From the NCBI GenBank assembly GCA_964019055.1, contig OZ025207.1:15527357-15591356 (forward strand): a DNA stretch of 64,000 bases. The letters run 5' to 3'. Numbering within the stretch: position 1 is the first letter of the stretch; each line of letters begins with the position of its first letter. Shown here piece after piece: positions 1,921 to 27,449 of this stretch. The notes under the pieces were generated by a model. The model worked only from the letters and a program-made list of their open reading frames with translations. It was not told the DNA's origin and made no database searches. The stretch is from Anthopleura xanthogrammica. Its lineage: Eukaryota > Cnidaria > Anthozoa > Actiniaria > Actiniidae. A program made the translations under genes and the position numbers.

Positions 1921-1996
1921 TTTTTTCTTTGCATTTCCCATGATGCATTGCGGAAAACCGCACAAATCAACAGCAAATCAGCAGCAGACCCTCTCG
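1908..1996 (+). other. Candidate first exon of the array transcript
   Basis: This segment runs from the inferred start to the first consensus donor (GTAAGT at 1997). Its 3' part is a shortened, diverged copy of the array exon (AATCAACAGCAAATC, then AGCAGCAGACCCTCTCG). The upstream array acceptor AG is missing at the equivalent position, as expected for a first exon. ATGATG at 1940-1945 opens a frame that, after splicing to the next exon, hits TGA after one codon. The frame open through the array has no ATG here: it is preceded by TGA at 1941-1943. So either translation enters another way or the transcript is non-coding. Confidence 0.35.
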
Positions 1997-4900
1997 GTAA
2001 GTATTTGGCTCAAAAATCATTTTGGCTAAAATAGTGCAAAAATTGAATTTTTCAATTACCCCGGGGTGGTCAAAAATGTGAATTTTGGAACTGGCTGAAC
2101 TTTTGTCTCTTTTTCACAGAAATGAACAGCAAATCATTCAGATATTAGTCACTGAGCAGAAGAGACCCTCTCGGTAAGTATTTGGCTCAAAAATCATTTT
2201 GGCTAAAATAGTGCAAAAATGGAATTTTTCAATTACCCCGGGGTGGTCAAAAATGTGAATTTTGGAACTGGCTGAACTTTTGTCTCTTTTTCACAGAAAT
2301 GAACAGCAAATCATTCAGATATTAGTCACTGAGCAGAAGAGACCCTCTCGGTAAGTATTTGGCTCAAAAATCATTTTGGCTAAAATAGTGCAAAAATTGA
2401 ATTTTTCAATTACCCCGGGGTGGTCAAAAATGTGAATTTTGGAACTGGCTGAACTTTTGTCTCTTTTTCACAGAAATGAACAGCAAATCATTCAGATATT
2501 AGTCACTGAGCAGAAGAGACCCTCTCGGTAAGTATTTGGCTCAAAAATCATTTTGGCTAAAATAGTGCAAAAATGGAATTTTTCAATTACCCCGGGGTGG
2601 TCAAAAATGTGAATTTTGGAACTGGCTGAACTTTTGTCTCTTTTTCACAGAAATGAACAGCAAATCATTCAGATATTAGTCACTGAGCAGAAGAGACCCT
2701 CTCGGTAAGTATTTGGCTCAAAAATCATTTTGGCTAAAATAGTGCAAAAATTGAATTTTTCAATTACCCCGGGGTGGTCAAAAATGTGAATTTTGGAACT
2801 GGCTGAACTTTTGTCTCTTTTTCACAGAAATGAACAGCAAATCATTCAGATATTAGTCACTGAGCAGAAGAGACCCTCTCGGTAAGTATTTGGCTCAAAA
2901 ATCATTTTGGCTAAAATAGTGCAAAAATGGAATTTTTCAATTACCCCGGGGTGGTCAAAAATGTGAATTTTGGAACTGGCTGAACTTTTGTCTCTTTTTC
3001 ACAGAAATGAACAGCAAATCATTCAGATATTAGTCACTGAGCAGAAGAGACCCTCTCGGTAAGTATTTGGCTCAAAAATCATTTTGGCTAAAATAGTGCA
3101 AAAATGGAATTTTTCAATTACCCCGGGGTGGTCAAAAATGTGAATTTTGGAACTGGCTGAACTTTTGTCTCTTTTTCACAGAAATGAACAGCAAATCATT
3201 CAGATATTAGTCACTGAGCAGAAGAGACCCTCTCGGTAAGTATTTGGCTCAAAAATCATTTTGGCTAAAATAGTGCAAAAATTGAATTTTTCAATTACCC
3301 CGGGGTGGTCAAAAATGTGAATTTTGGAACTGGCTGAACTTTTGTCTCTTTTTCACAGAAATGAACAGCAAATCATTCAGATATTAGTCACTGAGCAGAA
3401 GAGACCCTCTCGGTAAGTATTTGGCTCAAAAATCATTTTGGCTAAAATAGTGCAAAAATGGAATTTTTCAATTACCCCGGGGTGGTCAAAAATGTGAATT
3501 TTGGAACTGGCTGAACTTTTGTCTCTTTTTCACAGAAATGAACAGCAAATCATTCAGATATTAGTCACTGAGCAGAAGAGACCCTCTCGGTAAGTATTTG
3601 GCTCAAAAATCATTTTGGCTAAAATAGTGCAAAAATTGAATTTTTCAATTACCCCGGGGTGGTCAAAAATGTGAATTTTGGAACTGGCTGAACTTTTGTC
3701 TCTTTTTCACAGAAATGAACAGCAAATCATTCAGATATTAGTCACTGAGCAGAAGAGACCCTCTCGGTAAGTATTTGGCTCAAAAATCATTTTGGCTAAA
3801 ATAGTGCAAAAATGGAATTTTTCAATTACCCCGGGGTGGTCAAAAATGTGAATTTTGGAACTGGCTGAACTTTTGTCTCTTTTTCACAGAAATGAACAGC
3901 AAATCATTCAGATATTAGTCACTGAGCAGAAGAGACCCTCTCGGTAAGTATTTGGCTCAAAAATCATTTTGGCTAAAATAGTGCAAAAATTGAATTTTTC
4001 AATTACCCCGGGGTGGTCAAAAATGTGAATTTTGGAACTGGCTGAACTTTTGTCTCTTTTTCACAGAAATGAACAGCAAATCATTCAGATATTAGTCACT
4101 GAGCAGAAGAGACCCTCTCGGTAAGTATTTGGCTCAAAAATCATTTTGGCTAAAATAGTGCAAAAATGGAATTTTTCAATTACCCCGGGGTGGTCAAAAA
4201 TGTGAATTTTGGAACTGGCTGAACTTTTGTCTCTTTTTCACAGAAATGAACAGCAAATCATTCAGATATTAGTCACTGAGCAGAAGAGACCCTCTCGGTA
4301 AGTATTTGGCTCAAAAATCATTTTGGCTAAAATAGTGCAAAAATTGAATTTTTCAATTACCCCGGGGTGGTCAAAAATGTGAATTTTGGAACTGGCTGAA
4401 CTTTTGTCTCTTTTTCACAGAAATGAACAGCAAATCATTCAGATATTAGTCACTGAGCAGAAGAGACCCTCTCGGTAAGTATTTGGCTCAAAAATCATTT
4501 TGGCTAAAATAGTGCAAAAATGGAATTTTTCAATTACCCCGGGGTGGTCAAAAATGTGAATTTTGGAACTGGCTGAACTTTTGTCTCTTTTTCACAGAAA
4601 TGAACAGCAAATCATTCAGATATTAGTCACTGAGCAGAAGAGACCCTCTCGGTAAGTATTTGGCTCAAAAATCATTTTGGCTAAAATAGTGCAAAAATTG
4701 AATTTTTCAATTACCCCGGGGTGGTCAAAAATGTGAATTTTGGAACTGGCTGAACTTTTGTCTCTTTTTCACAGAAATGAACAGCAAATCATTCAGATAT
4801 TAGTCACTGAGCAGAAGAGACCCTCTCGGTAAGTATTTGGCTCAAAAATCATTTTGGCTAAAATAGTGCAAAAATGGAATTTTTCAATTACCCCGGGGTG

Positions 4901-7900
4901 GTCAAAAATGTGAATTTTGGAACTGGCTGAACTTTTGTCTCTTTTTCACAGAAATGAACAGCAAATCATTCAGATATTAGTCACTGAGCAGAAGAGACCC
5001 TCTCGGTAAGTATTTGGCTCAAAAATCATTTTGGCTAAAATAGTGCAAAAATTGAATTTTTCAATTACCCCGGGGTGGTCAAAAATGTGAATTTTGGAAC
5101 TGGCTGAACTTTTGTCTCTTTTTCACAGAAATGAACAGCAAATCATTCAGATATTAGTCACTGAGCAGAAGAGACCCTCTCGGTAAGTATTTGGCTCAAA
5201 AATCATTTTGGCTAAAATAGTGCAAAAATGGAATTTTTCAATTACCCCGGGGTGGTCAAAAATGTGAATTTTGGAACTGGCTGAACTTTTGTCTCTTTTT
5301 CACAGAAATGAACAGCAAATCATTCAGATATTAGTCACTGAGCAGAAGAGACCCTCTCGGTAAGTATTTGGCTCAAAAATCATTTTGGCTAAAATAGTGC
5401 AAAAATTGAATTTTTCAATTACCCCGGGGTGGTCAAAAATGTGAATTTTGGAACTGGCTGAACTTTTGTCTCTTTTTCACAGAAATGAACAGCAAATCAT
5501 TCAGATATTAGTCACTGAGCAGAAGAGACCCTCTCGGTAAGTATTTGGCTCAAAAATCATTTTGGCTAAAATAGTGCAAAAATGGAATTTTTCAATTACC
5601 CCGGGGTGGTCAAAAATGTGAATTTTGGAACTGGCTGAACTTTTGTCTCTTTTTCACAGAAATGAACAGCAAATCATTCAGATATTAGTCACTGAGCAGA
5701 AGAGACCCTCTCGGTAAGTATTTGGCTCAAAAATCATTTTGGCTAAAATAGTGCAAAAATTGAATTTTTCAATTACCCCGGGGTGGTCAAAAATGTGAAT
5801 TTTGGAACTGGCTGAACTTTTGTCTCTTTTTCACAGAAATGAACAGCAAATCATTCAGATATTAGTCACTGAGCAGAAGAGACCCTCTCGGTAAGTATTT
5901 GGCTCAAAAATCATTTTGGCTAAAATAGTGCAAAAATGGAATTTTTCAATTACCCCGGGGTGGTCAAAAATGTGAATTTTGGAACTGGCTGAACTTTTGT
6001 CTCTTTTTCACAGAAATGAACAGCAAATCATTCAGATATTAGTCACTGAGCAGAAGAGACCCTCTCGGTAAGTATTTGGCTCAAAAATCATTTTGGCTAA
6101 AATAGTGCAAAAATGGAATTTTTCAATTACCCCGGGGTGGTCAAAAATGTGAATTTTGGAACTGGCTGAACTTTTGTCTCTTTTTCACAGAAATGAACAG
6201 CAAATCATTCAGATATTAGTCACTGAGCAGAAGAGACCCTCTCGGTAAGTATTTGGCTCAAAAATCATTTTGGCTAAAATAGTGCAAAAATTGAATTTTT
6301 CAATTACCCCGGGGTGGTCAAAAATGTGAATTTTGGAACTGGCTGAACTTTTGTCTCTTTTTCACAGAAATGAACAGCAAATCATTCAGATATTAGTCAC
6401 TGAGCAGAAGAGACCCTCTCGGTAAGTATTTGGCTCAAAAATCATTTTGGCTAAAATAGTGCAAAAATGGAATTTTTCAATTACCCCGGGGTGGTCAAAA
6501 ATGTGAATTTTGGAACTGGCTGAACTTTTGTCTCTTTTTCACAGAAATGAACAGCAAATCATTCAGATATTAGTCACTGAGCAGAAGAGACCCTCTCGGT
6601 AAGTATTTGGCTCAAAAATCATTTTGGCTAAAATAGTGCAAAAATTGAATTTTTCAATTACCCCGGGGTGGTCAAAAATGTGAATTTTGGAACTGGCTGA
6701 ACTTTTGTCTCTTTTTCACAGAAATGAACAGCAAATCATTCAGATATTAGTCACTGAGCAGAAGAGACCCTCTCGGTAAGTATTTGGCTCAAAAATCATT
6801 TTGGCTAAAATAGTGCAAAAATGGAATTTTTCAATTACCCCGGGGTGGTCAAAAATGTGAATTTTGGAACTGGCTGAACTTTTGTCTCTTTTTCACAGAA
6901 ATGAACAGCAAATCATTCAGATATTAGTCACTGAGCAGAAGAGACCCTCTCGGTAAGTATTTGGCTCAAAAATCATTTTGGCTAAAATAGTGCAAAAATT
7001 GAATTTTTCAATTACCCCGGGGTGGTCAAAAATGTGAATTTTGGAACTGGCTGAACTTTTGTCTCTTTTTCACAGAAATGAACAGCAAATCATTCAGATA
7101 TTAGTCACTGAGCAGAAGAGACCCTCTCGGTAAGTATTTGGCTCAAAAATCATTTTGGCTAAAATAGTGCAAAAATGGAATTTTTCAATTACCCCGGGGT
7201 GGTCAAAAATGTGAATTTTGGAACTGGCTGAACTTTTGTCTCTTTTTCACAGAAATGAACAGCAAATCATTCAGATATTAGTCACTGAGCAGAAGAGACC
7301 CTCTCGGTAAGTATTTGGCTCAAAAATCATTTTGGCTAAAATAGTGCAAAAATGGAATTTTTCAATTACCCCGGGGTGGTCAAAAATGTGAATTTTGGAA
7401 CTGGCTGAACTTTTGTCTCTTTTTCACAGAAATGAACAGCAAATCATTCAGATATTAGTCACTGAGCAGAAGAGACCCTCTCGGTAAGTATTTGGCTCAA
7501 AAATCATTTTGGCTAAAATAGTGCAAAAATTGAATTTTTCAATTACCCCGGGGTGGTCAAAAATGTGAATTTTGGAACTGGCTGAACTTTTGTCTCTTTT
7601 TCACAGAAATGAACAGCAAATCATTCAGATATTAGTCACTGAGCAGAAGAGACCCTCTCGGTAAGTATTTGGCTCAAAAATCATTTTGGCTAAAATAGTG
7701 CAAAAATGGAATTTTTCAATTACCCCGGGGTGGTCAAAAATGTGAATTTTGGAACTGGCTGAACTTTTGTCTCTTTTTCACAGAAATGAACAGCAAATCA
7801 TTCAGATATTAGTCACTGAGCAGAAGAGACCCTCTCGGTAAGTATTTGGCTCAAAAATCATTTTGGCTAAAATAGTGCAAAAATGGAATTTTTCAATTAC

Positions 7901-8440
7901 CCCGGGGTGGTCAAAAATGTGAATTTTGGAACTGGCTGAACTTTTGTCTCTTTTTCACAGAAATGAACAGCAAATCATTCAGATATTAGTCACTGAGCAG
8001 AAGAGACCCTCTCGGTAAGTATTTGGCTCAAAAATCATTTTGGCTAAAATAGTGCAAAAATTGAATTTTTCAATTACCCCGGGGTGGTCAAAAATGTGAA
8101 TTTTGGAACTGGCTGAACTTTTGTCTCTTTTTCACAGAAATGAACAGCAAATCATTCAGATATTAGTCACTGAGCAGAAGAGACCCTCTCGGTAAGTATT
8201 TGGCTCAAAAATCATTTTGGCTAAAATAGTGCAAAAATGGAATTTTTCAATTACCCCGGGGTGGTCAAAAATGTGAATTTTGGAACTGGCTGAACTTTTG
8301 TCTCTTTTTCACAGAAATGAACAGCAAATCATTCAGATATTAGTCACTGAGCAGAAGAGACCCTCTCGGTAAGTATTTGGCTCAAAAATCATTTTGGCTA
8401 AAATAGTGCAAAAATGGAATTTTTCAATTACCCCGGGGTG
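1997..8440 (+). repeat. Array zone I: near-identical units, dimeric T/G alternation
   Basis: About 36 units that by eye differ only at one intron position: CAAAAATTGAATT versus CAAAAATGGAATT. The two forms alternate unit by unit (T,G,T,G...), defining a 354-bp dimer. The alternation slips to G,G near 2,930/3,110, 5,940/6,115, 7,175/7,350, 7,705/7,885 and 8,240/8,415. All exons here are intact, all donors and acceptors are consensus, and the intron reads CAATTACC. This is the youngest part of the array. Confidence 0.85.
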
Positions 8441-11400
8441 GTCAAAAATGTGAAAATTTGGAACTGGCTGAACTTTTGTCTCTTTTTCACAGAAATGAAC
8501 AGCAAATCATTCAGATATTAGTCACTGAGCAGAAGAGACCTTCTCGGTAAGTATTTGGCTCAAAAATCATTTTGGCTAAAATAGTGCAAAAATTGAATTT
8601 TTCGATTACCCCGGGGTGGTCAAAAATGTGAATTTTGGAACTGGCTGAACTTTTGTCTCTTTTTCACAGAAATGAACAGCAAATCATTCAGATATTAGTC
8701 ACTGAGGAGAAGAGACCCTCTCGGTAAGTATTTGGCTCAAAAATCATTTCGGCTAAAATAGTGCAAAAATTGAATTTTTCGATTACCCCGGGGTGGTCAA
8801 AAATGTGAATTTTGGAACTGGCTGAACTTTTGTCTCTTTTTCACAGAAATGAACAGCAAATCATTCAGATATTAGTCACTGAGCAGAAGAGACCCTCTCG
8901 GTAAGTATTTGGCTCAAAAATCATTTTGGCTAAAATAGTGCAAAAATGGAATTTTTCAATTACCCCGGGGTGGTCAAAAATGTGAATTTTGGAACTGGCT
9001 GAACTTTTGTCTCTTTTTCACAGAAATGAACAGCAAATCATTCAGATATTAGTCACTGAGCAGAAGAGACCCTCTCGGTAAGTATTTGGCTCAAAAATCA
9101 TTTTGGCTAAAATAGTGCAAAAATGGAATTTTTCAATTACCCCGGGGTGGTCAAAAATGTGAATTTTGGAACTGGCTGAACTTTTGTCTCTTTTTCACAG
9201 AAATGAACAGCAAATCATTCAGATATTAGTCACTGAGCAGAAGAGACCCTCTCGGTAAGTATTTGGCTCAAAAATCATTTTGGCTAAAATAGTGCAAAAA
9301 TGGAATTTTTCAATTACCCCGGGGTGGTCAAAAATGTGAATTTTGGAACTGGCTGAACTTTTGTCTCTTTTTCACAGAAATGAACAGCAAATCATTCAGA
9401 TATTAGTCACTGAGCAGAAGAGACCCTCTCGGTAAGTATTTGGCTCAAAAATCATTTTGGCTAAAATAGTGCAAAAATTGAATTTTTCAATTACCCCGGG
9501 GTGGTCAAAAATGTGAATTTTGGAACTGGCTGAACTTTTGTCTCTTTTTCACAGAAATGAACAGCAAATCATTCAGATATTAGTCACTGAGCAGAAGAGA
9601 CCCTCTCGGTAAGTATTTGGCTCAAAAATCATTTTGGCTAAAATAGTGCAAAAATTGAATTTTTCAATTACCCCGGGGTGGTCAAAAATGTGAATTTTGG
9701 AACTGGCTGAACTTTTGTCTCTTTTTCACAGAAATGAACAGCAAATCATTCAGATATTAGTCACTCAGCAGAAGAGACCCTCTCGGTAAGTATTTGGCTC
9801 AAAAATCATTTTGGCTAAAATAGTGCAAAAATTGAATTTTTCAATTACCCCGGGGTGGTCAAAAATGTGAATTTTGGAACTGGCTGAACTTTTGTCTCTT
9901 TTTCACAGAAATGAACAGCAAATCATTCAGATATTAGTCACTGAGCAGAAGAGACCCTCTCGGTAAGTATTTGGCTCAAAAATCATTTCGAATAAAATAG
10001 TGCAAAAATTGAATTTTTCGATTACCCCGGGGTGGTCAAAAATGTGAATTTTGGAACTGGCTGAACTTTTGTCTCTTTTTCACAGAAATGAACAGCAAAT
10101 CATTCAGATATTAGTCACTGAGCAGAAGAGACCCTCTCGGTAAGTATTTGGCTCAAAAATCATTTTGGCTAAAATAGTGCAAAAATTGAATTTTTCAATT
10201 ACCCCGGGGTGGTCAAAAATGTGAATTTTGGAACTGGCTGAACTTTTGTCTCTTTTTCACAGAAATGAACAGCAAATCATTCAGATATTAGTCACTGAGC
10301 AGAAGAGACCCTCTCGGTAAGTATTTGGCTCAAAAATCATTTTGGCTAAAATAGTGCAAAAATTGAATTTTTCAATTACCCCGGGGTGGTCAAAAATGTG
10401 AATTTTGGAACTGGCTGAACTTTTGTCTCTTTTTCACAGAAATGAACAGCAAATCATTCAGATATTAGTCACTGAGCAGAAGAGACCCTCTCGGTAAGTA
10501 TTTGGCTCAAAAATCATTTTGGCTAAAATAGTGCAAAAATTGAATTTTTCAATTACCCCGGGGTGGTCAAAAATGTGAATTTTGGAACTGGCTGAACTTT
10601 TGTCTCTTTTTCACAGAAATGAACAGCAAATCATTCAGATATTAGTCACTGAGCAGAAGAGACCCTCTCGGTAAGTATTTGGCTCAAAAATCATTTTGGC
10701 TAAAATAGTGCAAAAATGGAATTTTTCAATTACCCCGGGGTGGTCAAAAATGTGAATTTTGGAACTGGCTGAACTTTTGTCTCTTTTTCACAGAAATGAA
10801 CAGCAAATCATTCAGATATTAGTCACTGAGCAGAAGAGACCCTCTCGGTAAGTATTTGGCTCAAAAATCATTTTGGCTAAAATAGTGCAAAAATTGAATT
10901 TTTCGACTACCCCGGGGTGGTCAAAAATGTGAATTTTGGAACTGGCTGAACTTTTGTCTCTTTTTCACAGAAATGAACAGCAAATCATTCAGATATTAGT
11001 CACTGAACAGAAGAGACCCCCTCGGTAAGTATTTGGCTCAAAAATCATTTTGGCTAAAATAGTGCAAAAATTGAATTTTTCAATTACCCCGGGGTGGTCA
11101 AAAATGTGAATTTTGGAACTGGCTGAACTTTTGTCTCTTTTTCACAGAAATGAACAGCAAATATTAGTCACTGAGCAGAAGAGACCCTCTCGGTAAGTAT
11201 TTGGCTCAAAAATCATTTTGGCTAAAATAGTGCAAAAATTGAATTTTTCAATTACCCCGGGGTGGTCAAAAATGTGAATTTTGGAACTGGCTGAACTTTT
11301 GTCTCTTTTTCACAGAAATGAACAGCAAATCATTCAGATATTAGTCACTGAGCAGAAGAGACCCTCTCGGTAAGTATTTGGCTCAAAAATCATTTTGGCT

Positions 11401-14400
11401 AAAATAGTGCAAAAATTGAATTTTTCAATTACCCCGGGGTGGTCAAAAATGTGAATTTTGGAACTGGCTGAACTTTTGTCTCTTTTTCACAGAAATGAAC
11501 AGCAAATCATTCAGATATTAGTCACTGAGCAGAAGAGACCCTCTCGGTAAGTATTTGGCTCAAAAATCATTTTGGCTAAAATAGTGCAAAAATTGAATTT
11601 TTCAATTACCCCGGGGTGGTCAAAAATGTGAATTTTGGAACTGGCTGAACTTTTGTCTCTTTTTCACAGAAATGAACAGCAAATCATTCATATATTAGTC
11701 ACTGAGGAGAAGAGACCCTCTCGGTAAGTATTTGGCTCAAAAATCATTTTGGCTAAAATAGTGCAAAAATTGAATTTTTCAATTACCCCGGGGTGGTCAA
11801 AAATGTGAATTTTGGAACTGGCTGAACTTTTGTCTCTTTTTCACAGAAATGAACAGGAAATATTAGTCACTGAGCAGAAGAGACCCTCTCGGTAAGTATT
11901 TGGCTCAAAAATCATTTTGGCTAAAATAGTGCAAAAATTGAATTTTTCAATTACCCCGGGGTGGTCAAAAATGTCAATTTTGGAACTGGCTGAACTTTTG
12001 TCTCTTTTTCACAGAAATGAACAGCAAATCATTCAGATATTAGTCACTGAGCAGAAGAGACCCTCTCGGTAAGTATTTGGCTCAAAAATCATTTTGGCTA
12101 AAATAGTGCAAAAATTGAATTTTTCAATTACCCCGGGGTGGTCAAAAATGTGAATTTTGGAACTGGCTGAACTTTTGTCTCTTTTTCACAAAAATGAACA
12201 GCAAATCATTCAGATATTAGTCACTGAGCAGAAGAGACCCTCTCGGTAAGTATTTGGCTCAAAAATCATTTCGAATAAAATAGTGCAAAAATTGAATTTT
12301 TCGATTACCCCGGGGTGGTCAAAAATGTGAATTTTGGAACTGGCTGAACTTTTGTCTCTTTTTCACAGAAATGAACAGCAAATCATTCAGATATTAGTCA
12401 CTGAGGAGAAGAGACCCTCTCGGTAAGTATTTGGCTCAAAAATCATTTTGGCTAAAATAGTGCAAAAATTGAATTTTTCGATTACCCCGGGGTGGTCAAA
12501 AATGTGAATTTTGGAACTGGCTGAACTTTTGTCTCTTTTTCACAGAAATGAACAGCAAATCATTCAGATATTAGTCATTGAGCAGAAGAGACCCTCTCGG
12601 TAAGTATTTGGCTCAAAAATCATTTTGGCTAAAATAGTGCAAAAATGGAATTTTTCGATTACCCCAGGGTGGTCAAAAATGTGAATTTTGGAACTGGCTG
12701 AACTTTTGTCTCTTTTTCACAGAAATGAACAGCAAATCATTCAGATATTAGTCACTGAGCAGAAGAGACCCTCTCGGTAAGTATTTGGCTCAAAAATCAT
12801 TTTGGCTAAAATAGTGCAAAAATGGAATTTTTCGATTACCCCGGGGTGGTCAAAAATGTGAATTTTGGAACTGGCTGAACTTTTGTCTCTTTTTCACAGG
12901 ATGAACAGCAAATCATTCAGATATTAGTCACCGAGGAGAAGAGACCCTCTCGGTAAGTATTTGGCTCAAAAATCATTTTGGCTAAAATAGTGCAAAAATT
13001 GAATTTTGCGATTACCCTGGGGTGGTCAAAAATGTGTATGTTGGAACTGGCTGAACTTTTGTCTCTTTTTCACAGAAATGAACAGCAAATCATTCAGATA
13101 TTAGTCACTCAGCAGAAGAGACCCTCTCGGTAAGTATTTGGCTCAAAAATCATTTTGGCTAAAATAGTGCAAAAATTGAATTTTTCAATTACCCCGGGGT
13201 GGTCAAAAATGTGAATTTTGGAACTGGCTGAACTTTTGTCTCTTTTTCACAGAAATGAACAGCAAATCATTCAGATATTAGTCACTGAGCAGAAGAGACC
13301 CTCTCGGTAAGTATTTGGCTCAAAAATCATTTTGGCTAAAATAGTGCAAAAATTGAATTTTTCAATTACCCCGGGGTGGTCAAAAATGTGAATTTTGGAA
13401 CTGGCTGAACTTTTGTCTCTTTTTCACAGAAATGAACAGCAAATCATTCAGATATTAGTCACTGAGCAGAAGAGACCCTCTCGGTAAGTATTTGGCTCAA
13501 AAATCATTTTGGCTAAAATAGTGCAAAAATTGAATTTTTCAATTACCCCGGGGTGGTCAAAAATGTGAATTTTGGAACTGGCTGAACTTTTGTCTCTTTT
13601 TCACAGAAATGAACAGCAAATCATTCAGATATTAGTCACTGAACAGAAGAGACCCTCTCGGTAAGTATTTGGCTCAAAAATCATTTTGGCTAAAATAGTG
13701 CAAAAATTGAATTTTTCAATTACCCCGGGGTGGTCAAAAATGTGAATTTTGGAACTGGCTGAACTTTTGTCTCTTTTTCACAGAAATGAACAGCAAATAT
13801 TAGTCACTGAGCAGAAGAGACCCTCTCGGTAAGTATTTGGCTCAAAAATCATTTTGGCTAAAATAGTGCAAAAATTGAATTTTTCAATTACCCCGGGGTG
13901 GTCAAAAATGTCAATTTTGGAACTGGCTGAACTTTTGTCTCTTTTTCACAGAAATGAACAGCAAATCATTCAGATATTAGTCACTGAGCAGAAGAGACCC
14001 TCTCGGTAAGTATTTGGCTCAAAAATCATTTTGGCTAAAATAGTGCAAAAATTGAATTTTTCAATTACCCCGGGGTGGTCAAAAATGTGAATTTTGGAAC
14101 TGGCTGAACTTTTGTCTCTTTTTCACAAAAATGAACAGCAAATCATTCAGATATTAGTCACTGAGCAGAAGAGACCCTCTCGGTAAGTATTTGGCTCAAA
14201 AATCATTTCGAATAAAATAGTGCAAAAATTGAATTTTTCGATTACCCCGGGGTGGTCAAAAATGTGAATTTTGGAACTGGCTGAACTTTTGTCTCTTTTT
14301 CACAGAAATGAACAGCAAATCATTCATATATTAGTCACTGAGGAGAAGAGACCCTCTCGGTAAGTATTTGGCTCAAAAATCATTTTGGCTAAAATAGTGC

Positions 14401-15680: not shown

Positions 15681-18600
15681 TGAAAATTTGGAACTGGCTG
15701 AACTTTTGTCTCTTTTTCACAGAAATGAACAGCAAATCATTCAGATATTAGTCACTGAGCAGAAGAGACCTTCTCGGTAAGTATTTGGCTCAAAAATCAT
15801 TTTGGCTAAAATAGTGCAAAAATTGAATTTTTCGATTACCCCGGGGTGGTCAAAAATGTGAATTTTGGAACTGGCTGAACTTTTGTCTCTTTTTCACAGA
15901 AATGAACAGCAAATCATTCAGATATTAGTCACTGAGGAGAAGAGACCCTCTCGGTAAGTATTTGGCTCAAAAATCATTTCGGCTAAAATAGTGCAAAAAT
16001 TGAATTTTTCGATTACCCCGGGGTGGTCAAAAATGTGAATTTTGGAACTGGCTGAACTTTTGTCTCTTTTTCACAGAAATGAACAGCAAATCATTCAGAT
16101 ATTAGTCACTGAGCAGAAGAGACCCTCGGTAAGTATTTGGCTCAAAAATCATTTTGGCTAAAATAGTGCAAAAATGGAATTTTTCGATTACCCCGGGGTG
16201 GTCAAAAATGTGAATTTTGGAACTGGCTGAACTTTTGTCTCTTTTTCACAGAAATGAACAGCAAATCATTTAGATATTAGTCACTGAGGAGAAGAGACCT
16301 TCTCGGTAAGTATTTGGCTCAAAAATCATTTTGGCTAAAATAGTGCAAAAATTGAATTTTTCGATTACCCCGGGGTGGTCAAAAATGTGAATTTTGGAAC
16401 TGGCTGAACTTTTGTCTCTTTTTCACAGAAATGAACAGCAAATCATTCAGATATTAGTCACTGAGCAGAAGAGACCCTCTCGGTAAGTATTTGGCTCAAA
16501 AATCATTTCGACTAAATAGTGCAAAAATTGAATTTTTCGACTACCCCGGGGTGGTCAAAAATGTGAATTTTGGAACTGGCTGAACTTTTGTCTCTTTTTC
16601 ACAGAAATGAACAGCAAATCATTCAGATATTAGTCACTGAGGAGAAGAGACCTTCTCGGTAAGTATTTGGCTCAAAAATCATTTTGGCTAAAATAGTGCA
16701 AAAATTGAATTTTTCGATTACCCCGGGGTGGTCAAAAATGTGAATTTTGGAACTGGCTGAACTTTTGTCTCTTTTTCACAGAAATGAACAGCAAATCATT
16801 CAGATATTAGTCACTGAGCAGAAGAGACCCTCTCGGTAAGTATTTGGCTCCAAAATCATTTTGGCTAAAATAGTGCAAAAATTGAATTTTTCGACTACCC
16901 CGGGGTGGTCAAAAATGTGAATTTTGAAACTGGCTGAACTTTTGTCTCTTTTTCACAGAAATGAACAGCAAATCATTCAGATATTAGTCACTGAGGAGAA
17001 GAGACCTTCTCGGTAAGTATTTGGCTCAAAAATCATTTTGGCTAAAATAGTGCAAAAATGGAATTTTTCAATTACCCCGGGGTGGTCAAAAATGTGAATT
17101 TTGGAATTTGCTGAACTTTTGTCTCTTTTTCACAGAAATGAACAGCAAATCATTCAGATATTAGTCACTGAGGAGAAGAGACCCTCTCGGTAAGTATTTG
17201 GCTCAAAAATCATTTTGGCTAAAATAGTGCAAAAATTGAATTTTTCGATTACCCCGGGGTGGTCAAAAATGTGAATTTTGGAACTGGCTGAACTTTTGTC
17301 TCTTTTTCACAGAAATGAACAGCAAATCATTAAGATATTAGTCACTGAGGAGAAGAGAGCCTCTCGGTAAGTATTTGGCTCAAAAATCATTTTGGCTAAA
17401 ATAGTGCAAAAATTGAATTTTTCGATTACCCCGGGGTGGTCAAAAATGTGAATTTTGGAACTGGCTGAACTTTTGTCTCTTTTTCACAGAAATGAACAGC
17501 AAATCATTCAGATATTAGTCACTGAGCAGAAGAGACCCTCGGTAAGTATTTGGCTCAAAAATCATTTTGGCTAAAATAGTGCAAAAATGGAATTTTTCGA
17601 TTACCCCGGGGTGGTCAAAAATGTGAATTTTGGAACTGGCTGAACTTTTGTCTCTTTTTCACAGAAATGAACAGCAAATCATTCAGATATTAGTCACTGA
17701 GCAGAAGAGACCCTCTCGGTAAGTATTTGGCTCAAAAATCATTTTGGCTAAAATAGTGCAAAAATTGAATTTTTCGACTACCCCGGGGTGGTCAAAAAAG
17801 TTGAATTTTGAAACTGGCTGAACTTTTGTCTCTTTTTCACAGAAATGAACAGCAAATCATTCAGATATTAGTCACTGAGCAGAAGAGACCCTCTCGGTAA
17901 GTATTTGGCTCAAAAATCATTTTGGCTAAAATAGTGCAAAAATTGAATTTTTCGATTACCCCGGGGTGGTCAAAAATGTGAATTTTGGAACTGGCTGAAC
18001 TTTTGTCTCTTTTTCACAGAAATGAACAGCAAATCATTCAGATATTAGTCACTGAGGAGAAGAGACCTTCTCGGTAAGTATTTGGCTCAAAAATCATTTT
18101 GGCTAAAATAGTGCAAAAATTGAATTTTTCGATTACCCCGGGATTGTCAAAAATGTGAATTTTGGAACTGGCTGAACTTTTGTCTCTTTTTCACAGAAAT
18201 GAACAGCAAATCATTCAGATATTAGTCACTGAGCAGAAGAGACCCTCTCGGTAAGTATTTGGCTCAAAAATCATTTCGACTAAATAGTGCAAAAATTAAA
18301 TTTTTCGACTACCCCGGGGTGGTCAAAAATGTGAATTTTGGAACTGGCTAAACTTTTGTCTCTTTTTCACAGAAATGAACAGCAAATCATTCAGATATTA
18401 GTCACTGAGCAGAAGAGACCCTCTCGGTAAGTATTTGGCTCAAAAATCATTTTGGCTAAAATAGTGCAAAAATGGAATTTTTCAATTACCCCGGGGTGGT
18501 CAAAAATGTGAATTTTGGAATTAGCTGAACTTTTGTCTCTTTTTCACAGAAATGAACAGCAAATCATTCAGATATTAGTCACTGAGGAGAAGAGACCCTC

Positions 18601-21600
18601 TCGGTAAGTATTTGGCTCAAAAATCATTTTGGCTAAAATAGTGCAAAAATTGAATTTTTCGATTACCCCGGGGTGGTCAAAAATGTGAATTTTGGAACTG
18701 GCTGAACTTTTGTCTCTTTTTCACAGAAATGAACAGCAAATCATTAAGATATTAGTCACTGAGGAGAAGAGAGCCTCTCGGTAAGTATTTGGCTCAAAAA
18801 TCATTTTGGCTAAAATAGTGCAAAAATTGAATTTTTCGATTACCCCGGGGTGGTCAAAAATGTGAATTTTGGAACTGGCTAAACTTTTGTCTCTTTTTCA
18901 CAGAAATGAACAGCAAATCATTCAGATATTAGTCACTGAGCAGAAGAGACCCTCTCGGTAAGTATTTGGCTCAAAAATCATTTTGGCTAAAATAGTGCAA
19001 AAATGGAATTTTTCAATTACCCCGGGGTGGTCAAAAATGTGAATTTTGGAATTTGCTGAACTTTTGTCTCTTTTTCACAGAAATGAACAGCAAATCATTC
19101 AGATATTAGTCACTGAGGAGAAGAGACCCTCTCGGTAAGTATTTGGCTCAAAAATCATTTTGGCTAAAATAGTGCAAAAATTGAATTTTTCGATTACCCC
19201 GGGGTGGTCAAAAATGTGAATTTTGGAACTGGCTAAACTTTTGTCTCTTTTTTACAAAAATGAACAGCAAATCATTCAGATATTAGTCACTGAGCAGAAG
19301 AGACCCTCTCGGTAAGTATTTGGCTCAAAAATCATTTTGGCTAAAATAGTGCAAAAATGGAATTTTTCAATTACCCCGGGGTGGTCAAAAATGTGAATTT
19401 TGGAACTGGCTGAACTTTTGTCTCTTTTTCACAGAAATGAACAGCAAATCATTGAGATATTAGTCACTGAGGAGAAGAGACCCTCTCGGTAAGTATTTGG
19501 CTCAAAAATCATTTTGGCTAAAATAGTGCAAAAATTGAATTTTTCGATTACCCCGGGGTGGTCAAAAATGTGAATTTTGGAACTGGCTGAACTTTTGTCT
19601 CTTTTTCACAGAAATGAACAGCAAATCATTCAGATATTAGTCACTGAGGAGAAGAGACCCTCTCGGTAAGTATTTGGCTCAAAAATCATTTTGGCTAAAA
19701 TAGTGCAAAAATGGAATTTTTCGATTACCCCGGGGTGGTCAAAAATGTGAATTTTGGAACTGGCTGAACTTTTGTCTCTTTTTCACAGAAATGAACAGCA
19801 AATCATTCAGATATTAGTCACTGAGGAGAAGAGACCCTCTCGGTAAGTATTTGGCTCAAAAATCATTTTGGCTAAAATAGTGCAAAAATTGAATTTTTCG
19901 ATTACCCCGGGGTGGTCAAAAATGTCAATTTTGAAACTGGCTGAACTTTTGTCTCTTTTTCACAGAAATGAACAGCAAATCATTCAGATATTAGTCACTG
20001 AGCAGAAGAGACCCTCTCGGTAAGTATTTGGCTCAAAAATCATTTCGACTAAATATTGCAAAAATTAAATTTTTCGACTACCCCGGGGTGGTCAAAAATG
20101 TGAATTTTGGAACTGGCTAAACTTTTGTCTCTTTTTCACAGAAATGAACAGCAAATCATTCAGATATTAGTCACTGAGCAGAAGAGACCCTCTCGGTAAG
20201 TATTTGGCTCAAAAATCATTTTGGCTAAAATAGTGCAAAAATTGAATTTTTCGATTACCCCGGGGTGGTCAAAAATGTGAATTTTGGAACTGGCTGAACT
20301 TTTGTCTCTTTTTCACAGAAATGAACAGCAAATCATTAAGATATTAGTCACTGAGGAGAAGAGACCCTCTCGGTAAGTATTTGGCTCAAAAATCATTTTG
20401 GCTAAAATAGTGCAAAAATGGAATTTTTCTATTACCCCGGGGTGGTCAAAAATGTGAATTTTGGAACTGGCTGAACTTTTGTCTCTTTTTCACAGAAATG
20501 AACAGCAAATCATTCAGATATTAGTCACTGAGGAGAAGAGACCCTCTCGGTAAGTATTTGGCTCAAAAATCATTTCGGCTAAAATAGTGCAAAAATTGAA
20601 TTTTTCGATTACCCCGGGGTGGTCAAAAATGTGAATTTTGGAACTGGCTGAACTTTTGTCTCTTTTTCACAGAAATGAACAGCAAATCATTCAGATATTA
20701 GTCACTGAGCAGAAGAGACCCTCTCGGTAAGTATTTGGCTCAAAAATCATTTCGACTAAAATAGTGCAAAAATTGAATTTTTCGACTACCCCGGGTTAAT
20801 CAAAAATGTGAATTTTGGAACTGGCTGAACTTTTGTCTCTTTTTCACAGAAATGAACAGCAAATCATTCAGATATTAGTCACTGAGTAGAAGAGACCCTC
20901 TCGGTAAGTATTTGGCTCAAAAATCATTTCAGCTAAAATAGTGCAAAAATTGAATTTTTTCGACTACCCCGGGGTGGTCAAAAATGTGAATTTTGGAACT
21001 GGCTGAACTTTTGTCTCTTTTTCACAGAACTGAACAGCAAATCATTCAGATATTAGTCACTGAGCAGAAGAGACCCTCTCGGTAAGTATTTGGCTCAAAA
21101 ATCATTTTGGCTAAAATAGTGCAAAAATTGAATTTTTCGACTACCCCTGGGTGGTCAAAAATGTCAATTTTGAAACTGGCTGAACTTTTGTCTCTTTTTC
21201 ACAGAAATGAACAGCAAATCATTCAGATATTAGTCACTGAGGAGAAGAGACCCTCTCGGTAAGTATTTGGCTCAAAAATCATTTTGGCTAAAATAGTGCA
21301 AAAATTGAATTTTTCGATTACCCCGGGGTGGTCAAAAATGTGAATTTTGGAACTGGCTGAACTTTTGTCTCTTTTTCACAGAAATGAACAGCAAATCATT
21401 CAGATATTAGTCACTGAGGAGAAGAGACCCTCTCGGTAAGTATTTGGCTCAAAAATCATTTTGGCTAAAATAGTGCAAAAATGGAATTTTTCGATTACCC
21501 CGGGGTGGTCAAAAATGTGAATTTTGGAACTGGCTGAACTTTTGTCTCTTTTTCACAGAAATGAACAGCAAATCATTCAGATATTAGTCACTGAGGAGAA

Positions 21601-24600
21601 GAGACCCTCTCGGTAAGTATTTGGCTCAAAAATCATTTTGGCTAAAATAGTGCAAAAATTGAATTTTTCGATTACCCCGGGGTGGTCAAAAATGTCAATT
21701 TTGAAACTGGCTGAACTTTTGTCTCTTTTTCACAGAAATGAACAGCAAATCATTCAGATATTAGTCACTGAGCAGAAGAGACCCTCTCGGTAAGTATTTG
21801 GCTCAAAAATCATTTCGACTAAATATTGCAAAAATTAAATTTTTCGACTACCCCGGGGTGGTCAAAAATGTGAATTTTGGAACTGGCTAAACTTTTGTCT
21901 CTTTTTCACAGAAATGAACAGCAAATCATTCAGATATTAGTCACTGAGCAGAAGAGACCCTCTCGGTAAGTATTTGGCTCAAAAATCATTTTGGCTAAAA
22001 TAGTGCAAAAATTGAATTTTTCGATTACCCCGGGGTGGTCAAAAATGTGAATTTTGGAACTGGCTGAACTTTTGTCTCTTTTTCACAGAAATGAACAGCA
22101 AATCATTAAGATATTAGTCACTGAGGAGAAGAGACCCTCTCGGTAAGTATTTGGCTCAAAAATCATTTTGGCTAAAATAGTGCAAAAATGGAATTTTTCT
22201 ATTACCCCGGGGTGGTCAAAAATGTGAATTTTGGAACTGGCTGAACTTTTGTCTCTTTTTCACAGAAATGAACAGCAAATCATTCAGATATTAGTCACTG
22301 AGGAGAAGAGACCCTCTCGGTAAGTATTTGGCTCAAAAATCATTTCGGCTAAAATAGTGCAAAAATTGAATTTTTCGATTACCCCGGGGTGGTCAAAAAT
22401 GTGAATTTTGGAACTGGCTGAACTTTTGTCTCTTTTTCACAGAAATGAACAGCAAATCATTCAGATATTAGTCACTGAGCAGAAGAGACCCTCTCGGTAA
22501 GTATTTGGCTCAAAAATCATTTCGACTAAAATAGTGCAAAAATTGAATTTTTCGACTACCCCGGGTTAATCAAAAATGTGAATTTTGGAACTGGCTGAAC
22601 TTTTGTCTCTTTTTCACAGAAATGAACAGCAAATCATTCAGATATTAGTCACTGAGTAGAAGAGACCCTCTCGGTAAGTATTTGGCTCAAAAATCATTTC
22701 AGCTAAAATAGTGCAAAAATTGAATTTTTTCGACTACCCCGGGGTGGTCAAAAATGTGAATTTTGGAACTGGCTGAACTTTTGTCTCTTTTTCACAGAAC
22801 TGAACAGCAAATCATTCAGATATTAGTCACTGAGCAGAAGAGACCCTCTCGGTAAGTATTTGGCTCAAAAATCATTTTGGCTAAAATAGTGCAAAAATTG
22901 AATTTTTCGACTACCCCTGGGTGGTCAAAAATGTCAATTTTGAAACTGGCTGAACTTTTGTCTCTTTTTCACAGAAATGAACAGCAAATCATTCAGATAT
23001 TAGTCACTGAGCAGAAGAGACCCTCTCGGTAAGTATTTGGCTCAAAAATCATTTCGACTAAATATTGCAAAAATTGAATTTTTCGATTACCCCGGGGTGG
23101 TCAAAAATGTCAATTTTGAAACTGGCTGAACTTTTGTCTCTTTTTCACAGAAATGAACAGCAAATCATTCAGATATTAGTCACTGAGCAGAAGAGACCCT
23201 CTCGGTAAGTATTTGGCTCAAAAATCATTTCGACTAAATATTGCAAAAATTAAATTTTTCGACTACCCCGGGGTGGTCAAAAATGTGAATTTTGGAACTG
23301 GCTAAACTTTTGTCTCTTTTTCACAGAAATGAACAGCAAATCATTCAGATATTAGTCACTGAGCAGAAGAGACCCTCTCGGTAAGTATTTGGCTCAAAAA
23401 TCATTTTGGCTAAAATAGTGCAAAAATTGAATTTTTCGATTACCCCGGGGTGGTCAAAAATGTGAATTTTGGAACTGGCTGAACTTTTGTCTCTTTTTCA
23501 CAGAAATGAACAGCAAATCATTCAGATATTAGTCACTGAGGAGAAGAGACCCTCTCGGTAAGTATTTGGCTCAAAAATCATTTCGGCTAAAATAGTGCAA
23601 AAATTGAATTTTTCGATTACCCCGGGGTGGTCAAAAATGTGAATTTTGGAACTGGCTGAACTTTTGTCTCTTTTTCACAGAAATGAACAGCAAATCATTC
23701 AGATATTAGTCACTGAGGAGAAGAGACCCTCTCGGTAAGTATTTGGCTCAAAAATCATTTCGGCTAAAATAGTGCAAAAATTGAATTTTTCGATTACCCC
23801 GGGGTGGTCAAAAATGTGAATTTTGGAACTGGCTGAACTTTTGTCTCTTTTTCACAGAAATGAACAGCAAATCATTCAGATATTAGTCACTGAGCAGAAG
23901 AGACCCTCTCGGTAAGTATTTGGCTCAAAAATCATTTCGACTAAAATAGTGCAAAAATTGAATTTTTCGACTACCCCGGGTTAATCAAAAATGTGAATTT
24001 TGGAACTGGCTGAACTTTTGTCTCTTTTTCACAGAAATGAACAGCAAATCATTCAGATATTAGTCACTGAGTAGAAGAGACCCTCTCGGTAAGTATTTGG
24101 CTCAAAAATCATTTCAGCTAAAATAGTGCAAAAATTGAATTTTTTCGACTACCCCGGGGTGGTCAAAAATGTGAATTTTGGAACTGGCTGAACTTTTGTC
24201 TCTTTTTCACAGAACTGAACAGCAAATCATTCAGATATTAGTCACTGAGCAGAAGAGACCCTCTCGGTAAGTATTTGGCTCAAAAATCATTTTGGCTAAA
24301 ATAGTGCAAAAATTGAATTTTTCGACTACCCCTGGGTGGTCAAAAATGTCAATTTTGAAACTGGCTGAACTTTTGTCTCTTTTTCACAGAAATGAACAGC
24401 AAATCATTCAGATATTAGTCACTGAGCAGAAGAGACCCTCTCGGTAAGTATTTGGCTCAAAAATCATTTCGACTAAATATTGCAAAAATTGAATTTTTCG
24501 ATTACCCCGGGGTGGTCAAAAATGTCAATTTTGAAACTGGCTGAACTTTTGTCTCTTTTTCACAGAAATGAACAGCAAATCATTCAGATATTAGTCACTG

Positions 24601-27091
24601 AGCAGAAGAGACCCTCTCGGTAAGTATTTGGCTCAAAAATCATTTCGACTAAATATTGCAAAAATTAAATTTTTCGACTACCCCGGGGTGGTCAAAAATG
24701 TGAATTTTGGAACTGGCTAAACTTTTGTCTCTTTTTCACAGAAATGAACAGCAAATCATTCAGATATTAGTCACTGAGCAGAAGAGACCCTCTCGGTAAG
24801 TATTTGGCTCAAAAATCATTTTGGCTAAAATAGTGCAAAAATTGAATTTTTCGATTACCCCGGGGTGGTCAAAAATGTGAATTTTGGAACTGGCTGAACT
24901 TTTGTCTCTTTTTCACAGAAATGAACAGCAAATCATTAAGATATTAGTCACTGAGGAGAAGAGACCCTCTCGGTAAGTATTTGGCTCAAAAATCATTTTG
25001 GCTAAAATAGTGCAAAAATGGAATTTTTCTATTACCCCGGGGTGGTCAAAAATGTGAATTTTGGAACTGGCTGAACTTTTGTCTCTTTTTCACAGAAATG
25101 AACAGCAAATCATTCAGATATTAGTCACTGAGGAGAAGAGACCCTCTCGGTAAGTATTTGGCTCAAAAATCATTTCGGCTAAAATAGTGCAAAAATTGAA
25201 TTTTTCGATTACCCCGGGGTGGTCAAAAATGTGAATTTTGGAACTGGCTGAACTTTTGTCTCTTTTTCACAGAAATGAACAGCAAATCATTCAGATATTA
25301 GTCACTGAGCAGAAGATACCCTCTCGGTAAGTATTTGGCTCAAAAATCATTTCGACTAAAATAGTGCAAAAATTGAATTTTTCGACTACCCCGGGTTAAT
25401 CAAAAATGTGAATTTTGGAACTGGCTGAACTTTTGTCTCTTTTTCACAGAAATGAACAGCAAATCATTCAGATATTAGTCACTGAGTAGAAGAGACCCTC
25501 TCGGTAAGTATTTGGCTCAAAAATCATTTCAGCTAAAATAGTGCAAAAATTGAATTTTTTCGACTACCCCGGGGTGGTCAAAAATGTGAATTTTGGAACT
25601 GGCTGAACTTTTGTCTCTTTTTCACAGAAATGAACAGCAAATCATTGAGATATTAGTCACTGAGGAGAAGAGACCCTCTCGGTAAGTATTTGGCTCAAAA
25701 ATCATTTTGGCTAAAATAGTGCAAAAATTGAATTTTTCGATTACCCCGGGTTGGTCAAAAATGTGAATTTTGGAACTGGCTGAACTTTTGTCTCTTTTTC
25801 ACAGAAATGAACAGCAAATCATTCAGATATTAGTCACTGAGGAGAAGAGACCCTCTCGGTAAGTATTTGGCTCGAAAATCATTTTGGCTAAAATAGTGCA
25901 AAAATTGAATTTTTCGATTACCCCGGGGTGGTCAAAAATGTGAATTTTGGAACTGGCTGAACTTTTATCTCTTTTTCGCAGAAATGAACAGCAAATCATT
26001 CAGATATTAGTCACTGAGCAGAAGAGACCCTCTCGGTAAGTATTTGGCTCAAAAATCATTTCGACTAAAATAGTGCAAAAATTGAATTTTTCGACTACCC
26101 TGGGGTGGTCAAAAATGTGAATTTTGGAACTGGCTGAACTTTTGTCTCTTTTTCACAGAAATGAACAGCAAATCATTCAGATATTAGTCACTGAGCAGAA
26201 GAGACCCTCGGTAAGTATTTGGCTCAAAAATCATTTTGGCTAAAATAGTGCAAAAATTGAATTTTTCGATTACCCCGGGGTTGTCAAAAATGTGAATTTT
26301 GGAACTGGCTGAACTTTTGTCTCTTTTTCACAGAAATGAACAGCAAATCATTCAGATATTAGTCACTGAGGAGAAGAGACCTTCTCGGTAAGTATTTGGC
26401 TCAAAAATCATTTTGGCTAAAATAGTGCAAAAATTGAATTTTTCGATTACCCCGGGGTTGTCAAAAATGTGAATTTTGGAACTGGCTGAACTTTTGTCTC
26501 TTTTTCACAGAAATGAACAGCAAATCATTCAGATATTAGTCACTGAGCAGAAGAGACTCTCGGTAAGTATTTGGCTCAAAAATCATTTCGACTAAAATAG
26601 TGCAAAAATTGAATTTTTCGACTACCCCGAGGTGGTCAAAAATGTGAATTTTGGAACTGGCTGAACTTTTGTCTCTTTTTCACAGAAATGAACAGCAAAT
26701 CATTCAGATATTAGTCACTGAGGAGAAGAGACCTTCTCGGTAAGTATTTGGCTCAAAAATCATTTTGGCTAAAATAGTGCAAAAATTGAATTTTTCGATT
26801 ACCCCGGGGTTTTCAAAAATGTGAATTTTGGAACTGGCTGAACTTTTGTCTCTTTTTCACAGAAATGAACAGCAAATCATTCAGATATTAGTCACTGAGC
26901 AGAAGAGACCCTCGGTAAGTATTTGGCTCAAAAATTATTTCGATTAAAATAGTGCAAAAATTGAATTTTTCGACTACCCCGAGGTGGTCAAAAATGTGAA
27001 TTTTGGAACTGGCTGAACTTTTGTCTCTTTTTCACAGAAATGAACAGCAAATCATTGAGATATTAGTCACTGAGGAGAAGAGACCCTCTCG
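15681..27091 (+). repeat. Array zone III: most diverged units, with exon lesions
   Basis: The zone starts with the rare GTGAAAATTTGG variant also seen at 8451, followed by the same string of variants, so these two sites share ancestry. Typical forms are CGACTACC, AAATATTGC and GAGGAG. Exon lesions include an in-frame TAG at 16,271 and further TAGs at 20,886, 22,656, 24,072 and 25,486. There are 2-bp deletions before the donor near 16,128, 17,538, 26,208, 26,558 and 26,913. The acceptor is lost near 19,253. Confidence 0.8.
19600..25700 (+). repeat. Higher-order repeats of 10, 8 and 8 units
   Basis: The marker CCGGGTTAAT occurs at 20,791, 22,561, 23,976 and 25,391. The spacings are 1,770 bp (10 units) and twice 1,415 bp (8 units minus 1 bp). 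Each marker is followed by the exon with GAGTAG (stop) and then by the CATTTCAGCTAAAAT intron. In the first three blocks that intron leads to an exon starting CAGAACTGAAC; in the fourth it leads to CAGAAATGAAC. This shows repeated copying of a multi-unit block. Confidence 0.85.
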
Positions 27092-27391
27092 GTAAGTATT
27101 TGGCTCAAAAATCATTTCGGCTAAAGTAGTGCAAAAATGGAATTATTCAATTACCCCGGGGTGTGGAAAAAACGCAATTTTGGAACAGGCTGAACTTTTG
27201 TCTCTTTTTTACAGAAATCAACAGCAAATCATTCAGATATTAGCCACTGGGCAGCAGAGACCCTCTCGGTAACTAGTTGGTTTAAAAATCCTTTTTGCCA
27301 AAATAGTGGAAAAATGGAATTTTTTAATTACCCCGGGGTGTGGAAAAATGTCAATTTTGGAAAAGGCTGGACTTTTGTCTCTTTTTCACAG
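27092..27391 (+). repeat. Degenerate 3' edge units of the array
   Basis: Two units with many substitutions: AATCAACAG instead of AATGAACAG, GCCACTGGG instead of GTCACTGAG, GGTGTGGAAAAA in the intron, and donor GTAACT at 27,269. The 54-nt exon between them is still open in the array frame and reads NQQQIIQILATGQQRPSR. Divergence towards the edge is the usual pattern for a tandem array homogenised in its interior. Confidence 0.8.
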
Positions 27392-27449
27392 AAATCAACA
27401 GCAAATCATTCAGATATTAGCCACTGGGCAGAAAGATAGTCTAAGATAG
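27392..27449 (+). other. Candidate terminal coding exon of the array transcript
   Basis: It begins after a consensus acceptor (CTCTTTTTCACAG ending at 27,391). In the array phase it reads NQQQIIQILATGQKDSLR and then TAG at 27,447-27,449. The donor that follows other exons is absent, so transcription would run on into 3' sequence. An AATAAA lies at 28,417-28,422. The open frame persisting through this diverged copy is weak support for coding. Confidence 0.35.

Follow-up and report, generated by a model that had tools for sequence, protein, structure and literature searches.

The question raised by this locus, which lies in a window of 64,000 nucleotides from the sea anemone Anthopleura xanthogrammica, is whether a long run of near-identical monomers, nearly each of them equipped with a full set of splice signals, is an ordinary satellite or the body of a multi-exon gene. 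The earlier note had proposed about 143 tandem copies of an intron plus an exon. This was borne out by our mapping, which resolved 144 introns and 143 internal exons in the array (hereafter array W):

1997..27391, plus strand: array W, 144 mini-introns and 143 internal mini-exons with a period of 177 (tandem-repeat and splice-site mapping)
1997..2119, plus strand: first intron, 123 nt, GTAAGTAT...CTGAA...TTTTTCACAG (sequence reading)
2120..2173, plus strand: first complete internal exon, 54 nt (sequence reading)
27269..27391, plus strand: last intron, with the degenerate donor GTAACT (sequence reading)
27392..27508, plus strand: decayed final unit, donor lost (TRF and sequence reading)

TRF delimited the tandem repeat at 1986-27508, with a period of 177, 144.4 copies and 97% matches. 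Introns are 122-124 nt long, and the 144 donors are paired with 144 acceptors, the final one ending at 27391. The unit carries GTAAGT, a branch-like site, a pyrimidine tract and CACAG; GTAAGT is found in 143/144 donors, the exception being the last, and the acceptor AG is changed to AA in 3/144 units, so that the full signal set described in the earlier note is present in nearly every 177-bp monomer. Donor-to-donor gaps (n=143) measure 177 in 117 cases, 176 in 10, 178 in 8, 175 in 5 and 168 in 3. The exon length of 54 nt given in the earlier note holds for 133 of the 143 internal exons and fails for 10 (52 nt in five, 53 in two and 45 in three); similarly, its branch-like CTGAAC is valid for array W, but across arrays the motif is CTNAA. 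No strong superrepeat was found, identity by lag being nearly flat, and the array is a long head-to-tail run of uniform monomers, as a satellite is. Splicing would join ...CCCTCTCG to AAATGAACAG at the predicted exon-exon junction.

Among 20000 dinucleotide-preserving shuffles of the monomer, GTRAGT, a tract of at least 12 pyrimidines in 15 and YAG appeared in that order in 40. The real unit passes this test on the plus strand, and all eight unit consensuses fail it on the minus strand; with the complete set in 0/8 of them, a minus-strand gene was rejected.

The earlier note has to be corrected in one respect: array W is one member of a family, with at least five sister arrays elsewhere in the genome, the consensus units of the six (W, B, C, D, E and F) being 84-97% similar. 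Its members lie on contig C2 and, according to the assembly, also on C6 and two small contigs. We read 806 units, from these six arrays and from the sets C107 and C24, after 69 antisense units of the latter two (identity under 0.8) had been left out. As the genome contains 1471 exon-acceptor matches, the units read are only a part of the total; array E, for instance, contributed 150 of an estimated 312 units, its middle being probed at three points.

In these eight unit sets GT and AG are both intact in 801/806 units. The repeated exons are thus flanked by splice-site sequences that are not only present but also conserved. Among the six array consensuses 45/177 positions vary, yet the 22 core splice positions (donor -1..+6, acceptor -15..-1) are all constant, whereas 5.6 of them would be expected to vary (column permutation, 0.0009). 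Within the unit, invariance extends furthest at the acceptor (18 nt) and the donor (16 nt), the corresponding test (Monte Carlo, 0.0004) having been picked post hoc, and the N of the branch-like CTNAA (G, A or C) is the sole position of that motif to vary. Divergence within the unit is greatest in the exon interior, whose 50 nt hold 17 variable columns versus 12.7 expected, the maximum over all circular block placements. In a circular-shift control between arrays, which is a weaker one, the core windows were equalled by 6/177 shifts and wider windows by 12/177. Within arrays, whose units are not independent of each other, the donor taken by itself shows no shortage of distinct variants (11 versus 11.2 expected), and the core windows are only mildly depleted (18 versus 27.5; permutation, 0.04; 13/177 shifts as good). 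All test windows were defined after the alignment had been viewed, and the controls favour invariance of the core, not all of them strongly. The claim that almost all monomers carry splice signals is hence supported, with signs of upkeep across six diverged arrays, and the best reading of the sequence is that the family consists of satellite-scale, multi-exon non-coding genes maintained in a spliceable state.

A gene of this kind would need a beginning, and a candidate lies immediately upstream of the first donor:

1292..1996, plus strand: 5' leader, predicted promoter and first exon (DNA identity of 84-92% with arrays B, C, E and F)
1877..1884, plus strand: TATA-like TATAAAAA, kept in W, B and F, with TATCAAAA in C and E
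1935..1952, plus strand: STAF/ZNF143-type site, matching 17/18 positions of YWCCCRNMATSCMYYRCR (consensus match)

We take the motif at 1877..1884 to be TATA-like. A search with the leader found four other places matching at least 660/896 query bases, all at array starts, so that it is present at 5/6 array starts read and absent at that of D. Array E has no first donor, because its leader meets the first unit inside the intron. Scanning the window with the STAF/ZNF143 consensus, as quoted in an excerpt of PMC5006282, gave one plus-strand match of at least 16 positions and four on the minus strand, one of them of 17 at 49530. When up to 3 mismatches are allowed, the genome holds 8 occurrences of the 24-mer around the site; array starts account for 5, and at the three other places no array follows. 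The leader of the arrays is predicted to be promoter-like.

On the 3' side, two further features could complete the gene:

27782..27945, plus strand: predicted downstream exon, CACAG/GCCGATTACAG...ATAAG/GTAATT (borders kept in paralogous loci)
28716..28721, plus strand: AATAAA, predicted polyadenylation signal (sequence reading; same in the array B locus)

The downstream exon recurs in 2-3 copies in each of seven distal loci, 18 in total, and together with the leader it is, by sequence, a candidate gene feature at the array borders, array D lacking the leader and array C the downstream exon. In array B it reads through as a 53-residue frame, and an isolated copy at C2:15.447 Mb is open as well. 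A coding downstream exon was not accepted; W and E have stops in this frame, and distal copies have stops, gaps or frame breaks.

Whether the repeated exons themselves encode a protein was examined in three frames over the in-length exons of the eight unit sets. Frame 0 is stopped in 136/137 W and 150/150 E exons; it is stop-free in 146/146 B, 195/195 in-length C, 73/73 F and 19/19 D exons. Frame 1 is stopped in 146/146 B, 19/19 D and 150/150 E exons, and frame 2 in all W, B, C, D and F exons, so that none of the three is open across all arrays. Distinct synonymous to non-synonymous variants stand at 1:6 in B and 5:19 in C, against a neutral expectation of about 0.22:0.75, the power against selected-against stops being low (about one expected). 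Because no frame is open in all arrays and the variants fit the neutral coding expectation, the exons are probably non-coding, and a protein-coding repeat is not supported as a property of the family. It might still be proposed that B, C and F encode a giant protein with an 18-residue repeat, W and E being dead copies. The leader of these three arrays holds ATG ATG CAT TGC in frame with the open frame 0, which fits such a proposal; however, this ATG belongs to the promoter motif, 8/203 exons of array C are out of frame, the variants of B and C are those expected under neutrality, and a search with the joined repeat translations, in which 7999 candidates of comparable length were scored, gave no protein match at E up to 1. 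Together with the stops in W, this makes the giant protein improbable.

The introns, rather than the exons, could be the functional product, in the manner of SNORD116, as precursors of snoRNA, microRNA or piRNA with the exons as by-products. The architecture is that of snoRNA host arrays, and repetitive transcripts often feed small RNA, but the introns themselves speak against it, and we judge it very improbable. No Rfam model reached its gathering score anywhere in the window, and within 1800-2900 the matches were weak, all of them far below that score; a C box within one mismatch is absent from 5/6 intron consensuses and CTGA from two; three introns fold no better than their shuffles (z of -0.11, -0.37 and -1.12). 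Neither Rfam nor the C/D boxes thus indicate a SNORD116-type host array with a C/D box snoRNA in each intron. Almost no credence is due to an array of spliced-leader RNA genes, which a short exon ahead of a GT donor in tandem copies might recall. An SL RNA gene is not known to have a branch site, pyrimidine tract or AG directly before its exon, whereas here a conserved branch-like site, a tract and an AG immediately precede it; with no match to a known SL model in Rfam either, this candidate was rejected. An ordinary satellite, seeded by chance from an exon and its intron and bearing inherited signals no longer in use, is unlikely, if still a serious alternative. As in classical satellite DNA, uniform 177-bp monomers run head-to-tail over tens of kilobases, turnover is quick (72/73 read units of array F are identical), exon variation looks neutral, array ends are disrupted in C (3'), D (5') and E (5'), and about 6 kb of foreign sequence interrupts array B. 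What distinguishes these arrays from a classical satellite is the full splice-signal set in almost every monomer, with its invariant core amid 45 variable positions, and a common promoter-like leader kept at five of six starts.

We therefore hold it likely, if far from certain, that the array serves as the body of a non-coding gene with many exons, whose predicted plus-strand transcript would be spliced into a repeat-exon RNA. Transcription would begin from the STAF/ZNF143-type leader, and once each 123-nt intron had been removed, the repeated 54-nt exons would follow one another in a long RNA. Uniformity within arrays may be upheld by unequal exchange or gene conversion, and selection may maintain the spliceability of units, since unspliceable ones would spoil the transcript. 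The product would act, if at all, through its length and repetition, and not through exon sequence or a protein. Several observations do not sit well with this explanation, namely the start of D without a leader, E without a first donor, three leader places without arrays, the degenerate last donor of W, and frame 0 being open in all B, D and F units and in the 195 in-length C units.

The units of SNORD116 / IPW-A measure kilobases, whereas the array unit is 177 bp, its copies run to hundreds, and no intronic snoRNA was found. The statement of the earlier note that it knew of no described system with this layout needs amending, because parallels are described, as far as excerpts of the sources go: SNORD116 / IPW-A of the mammalian Prader-Willi region, where tandem non-protein-coding exons within one region host intronic repeats (PMC4742849, PMC9369261), and the Flagelliform and Argiope MaSp2 spidroin genes, in which a repeat exon with its near-identical, homogenised intron was multiplied within the gene (PMC9779670). 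Spidroin exons encode silk, unlike the arrays, which have no common frame and whose variants look neutral. In layout only, the arrays also resemble the lncRNA Firre, a non-coding transcript (as is predicted here) in which, by the excerpt of PMC4820808, one repeat forms 7/13 human and 11/23 mouse exons. Firre, however, has few repeat exons in a larger locus, while the anemone arrays are hundreds of copies of a compact exon-intron monomer, with exon sequence not conserved between loci. To our knowledge, the homologous repeating RNA domain and synteny of Firre are not to be expected outside mammals. No comparable array was among the literature matches listed, anemone-directed ones included, which does not imply its absence from print.

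One tentative view, which we hold possible, is that of a satellite turned gene body. A family of anemone loci would give rise to non-coding RNAs, each assembled from about twenty to three hundred near-identical 54-nt exons, selection would act on the spliceability of the monomer and not on exon sequence, and the satellite would persist in transcribed DNA by being spliceable. If transcribed, the arrays would rank with the most exon-rich genes and with those whose exons are most uniform, and they would offer a test, set up by nature, of how splice sites are paired by the spliceosome when all donors and all acceptors are alike. Isoform ladders and circular RNA might also arise from them, as might the exon skipping proposed in the earlier note. 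Such genes would, moreover, show splice signals kept by selection while exons drift, and so set apart what splicing itself is worth from what the spliced sequence is worth.

The array W, in which mini-introns and mini-exons alternate with a period of 177 bp, is real, and its type is more widely spread in the genome than the earlier note stated. TRF placed it at 1986-27508 (144.4 copies, 97% matches), in agreement with the location proposed previously, and its 144 donors and 144 acceptors delimit 144 introns and 143 internal exons:

1997-27391, plus strand: introns and internal exons of array W, from the start of the first intron to the end of the last, by donor and acceptor positions

The claims that every unit is complete and carries a 54-nt exon hold for most of the array: GTAAGT opens 143 of the 144 introns, but the final one starts with GTAACT and three acceptors end in AA; 133 internal exons measure 54 nt, but ten do not, being 52 (five), 53 (two) or 45 nt (three) long. 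A donor, pyrimidine tract and acceptor in the right sequence appeared in 40 of 20,000 dinucleotide-preserving shuffles of the monomer, and the real monomers passed this test on the plus strand only.

A 27-mer spanning exon and acceptor gave 1471 matches at up to 3 mismatches in the genome searched (290 Mb, 125 contigs; the window lies at C2:15527357-15591356), and its reversed control gave none. The following sister arrays were recognized:

C2:14.309-14.342 Mb: array B, found by genome search, then read
C2:7.591-7.628 Mb: array C, found by genome search, then read
C2:14.638 Mb: array D, 20 units
C2:14.747-14.802 Mb: array E, about 312 units by length, 150 of them read
C6:12.865 Mb: array F, first 73 units used
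Small contigs C107 and C24: read in part, units F-like

The consensus units of W and B-F are all of 177 bp, with pairwise identity of 84-97%. Placing of array F on C6 is uncertain because it runs into a stretch of N; 72 of its 73 units read are identical, a uniformity far above that of the other large arrays. Array B is broken by about 6 kb of other sequence (L010 1-1881 and L030; all but 1.2 kb of it read), which holds a minus-strand open frame of 627 residues, by eye a retroelement gag-like protein. On C107 (L014), plus-strand units are followed, after a gap of about 0.5 kb, by minus-strand units, so either the array is palindromic or the contig is misassembled.

Other sequences were noted in passing. 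The window holds a 96-bp repeat (31207-31570, 3.8 copies by TRF), whose minus strand reads CATACAG/CAACAAG/GTGAGTCC, resembling a 7-nt micro-exon between acceptor and donor, and a 49-bp minisatellite repeat (42500-42795) containing CCAATAGCAAG and CCCAATGTAAGTT, two splice-like words too close together for a usual intron. On contig C125 a mitochondrial-type cox1 is split into two pieces, between which lies an open frame of LAGLIDADG type by eye; the first piece is 100% identical to a cluster named for Anemonia viridis (306 residues searched). This makes a sea anemone the likely host, A. viridis or a near relative; the species assignment is tentative, since mitochondrial proteins of sea anemones change slowly. 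The COX1-type frames of C59 and C44, with ungapped pieces (C44 partial only), possibly derive from bacteria living with the animal.

Both GT and AG are intact in 801 of 806 units (W, B-F, C107 and C24), the exceptions being acceptor AA three times (W), acceptor AC once (B) and donor GG once (C). The six consensus units vary at 45 of 177 positions. With two sets of windows, both defined after the consensus alignment had been inspected, 2 of 28 positions varied between arrays in the wide set, tried first (donor -3 to +6, acceptor -18 to +1), where 7.1 would be expected (0.009 by column permutation; equalled by 12 of 177 circular shifts), and none of 22 in the core set (donor -1 to +6, acceptor -15 to -1; 5.6 expected; permutation, 0.0009; 6 of 177 shifts equally good). 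Within arrays, 22 distinct variants fell in the wide windows (35.0 expected; permutation, 0.014; 2 of 177 shifts) and 18 in the core windows (27.5 expected; 0.04; 13 of 177 shifts), all these figures being guides rather than exact probabilities, because units within one array share history. The within-array depletion is located in the acceptor (11 variants vs 23.7 expected; 0.004), and the donor shows none (11 vs 11.2). In a test picked post hoc, the two longest invariant runs of the unit, of 18 and 16 nt, are those of the acceptor and donor, respectively, and in the branch-like CTNAA N alone differs between arrays (G, A or C). Divergence is greatest in the exon interior, with 17 variable columns where 12.7 were expected, a number that no circular placement of the block exceeds; its within-array variants are near expectation (64 vs 62.4). 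Since splice positions are depleted of change and the exon interior diverges most, the signals appear to be kept while the content of the exons drifts.

The borders of array W carry the following sequence features:

About 1292-1996: leader (predicted promoter and first exon), which B, C, E and F also have at their starts, at 84-92% identity
1877-1884: TATAAAAA, within the leader
1935-1952: TTCCCATGATGCATTGCG, within the leader, in agreement with the STAF/ZNF143 consensus at 17 of its 18 positions
27782-27945, plus strand: predicted downstream exon, an exon-like stretch CACAG/GCCGATTACAG...AAG/GTAA, present also in B and E
28716-28721, plus strand: AATAAA, 3' of the downstream exon

The leader is absent from the start of array D, and in array E it joins the first unit inside the intron, so that no donor follows it there. 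Compared with the consensus YWCCCRNMATSCMYYRCR (PMC5006282), the copy of the STAF/ZNF143-type site in E fits at 16 positions. The site at 1935-1952 is the sole match of at least 16 on the plus strand of the window; on the minus strand there are four, of which one, at 49530, reaches 17 and another is 1935-1952 itself read in reverse. The surrounding 24-mer has eight genome copies at up to 3 mismatches, five at array starts and three at arrayless places. Part of the leader (1596-1884) is a dispersed repeat, found at 75-83% identity in at least 35 further places on many contigs. At the 3' side, the predicted downstream exon lies in a region that recurs at 71-73% identity in seven loci at C2:0.5-2.2 Mb. 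Each of these loci has two or three copies of it (18 in total, some of them partial matches), and 17 of the 18 have a GTAAG or GTGAG donor. These loci (L016-L022) lie on both strands and are surrounded by GGAT-type repeats. Array D joins this common region close to where the predicted exon ends, and in array C other sequence replaces the 3' end.

A protein common to all arrays does not seem to be encoded, as judged from the three plus-strand frames of the exon. Frame 1, in which W exons read NEQQIIQILVTEQKRPSR, has a stop in 5 of the 143 internal exons of W, where seven others, of 52 or 53 nt, shift the frame, and in all exons of B, D and E; frame 2 is stopped in all exons of W, B, C, D and F. 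We have kept as a rival the explanation that B, C and F are protein-coding in frame 0. This frame is free of stops in every exon read from B, D and F and in all 195 in-length exons of C, and a leader ATG is in frame with it in B, C and F. In W, 136 of 137 in-length exons (a count that includes the decayed last one) carry a stop in frame 0, as do all exons read from E. The synonymous/non-synonymous split of distinct exon variants is as in neutral change, and when the joined repeat translations of both frames were compared with 7999 scored candidates of similar length, no protein matched at E up to 1.

The earlier note knew of no described system with such a layout; parallels do exist. In IPW-A/SNORD116, tandem non-coding exons host intronic repeats (PMC4742849, PMC9369261), and our array likewise consists of tandem, probably non-coding exons, but without a detected intron snoRNA (none was found with Rfam or as C/D boxes in the intron consensuses). 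Folding of three introns and three exon pairs was no better than that of shuffles. Firre, where a single repeat serves as many exons (PMC4820808), is alike in that one repeat makes many exons, and spidroin genes, whose homogenised introns multiplied along with repeat exons (PMC9779670), in the amplification of near-uniform introns together with such exons. On sequence grounds, the whole probably varies a layout that is already known, and what is new is its scale, compactness, number of loci, and the contrast of kept signals with drifting exons. We propose that the arrays form a family of non-coding genes for which the leader would drive transcription; in this family, repeat exon and intron would have multiplied as one unit, and unequal exchange or conversion may keep the units alike inside each locus. 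The predicted spliced product would contain about 7.7 kb of repeat exon from W and about 17 kb from E, and the target of selection would be the spliceability of the unit.
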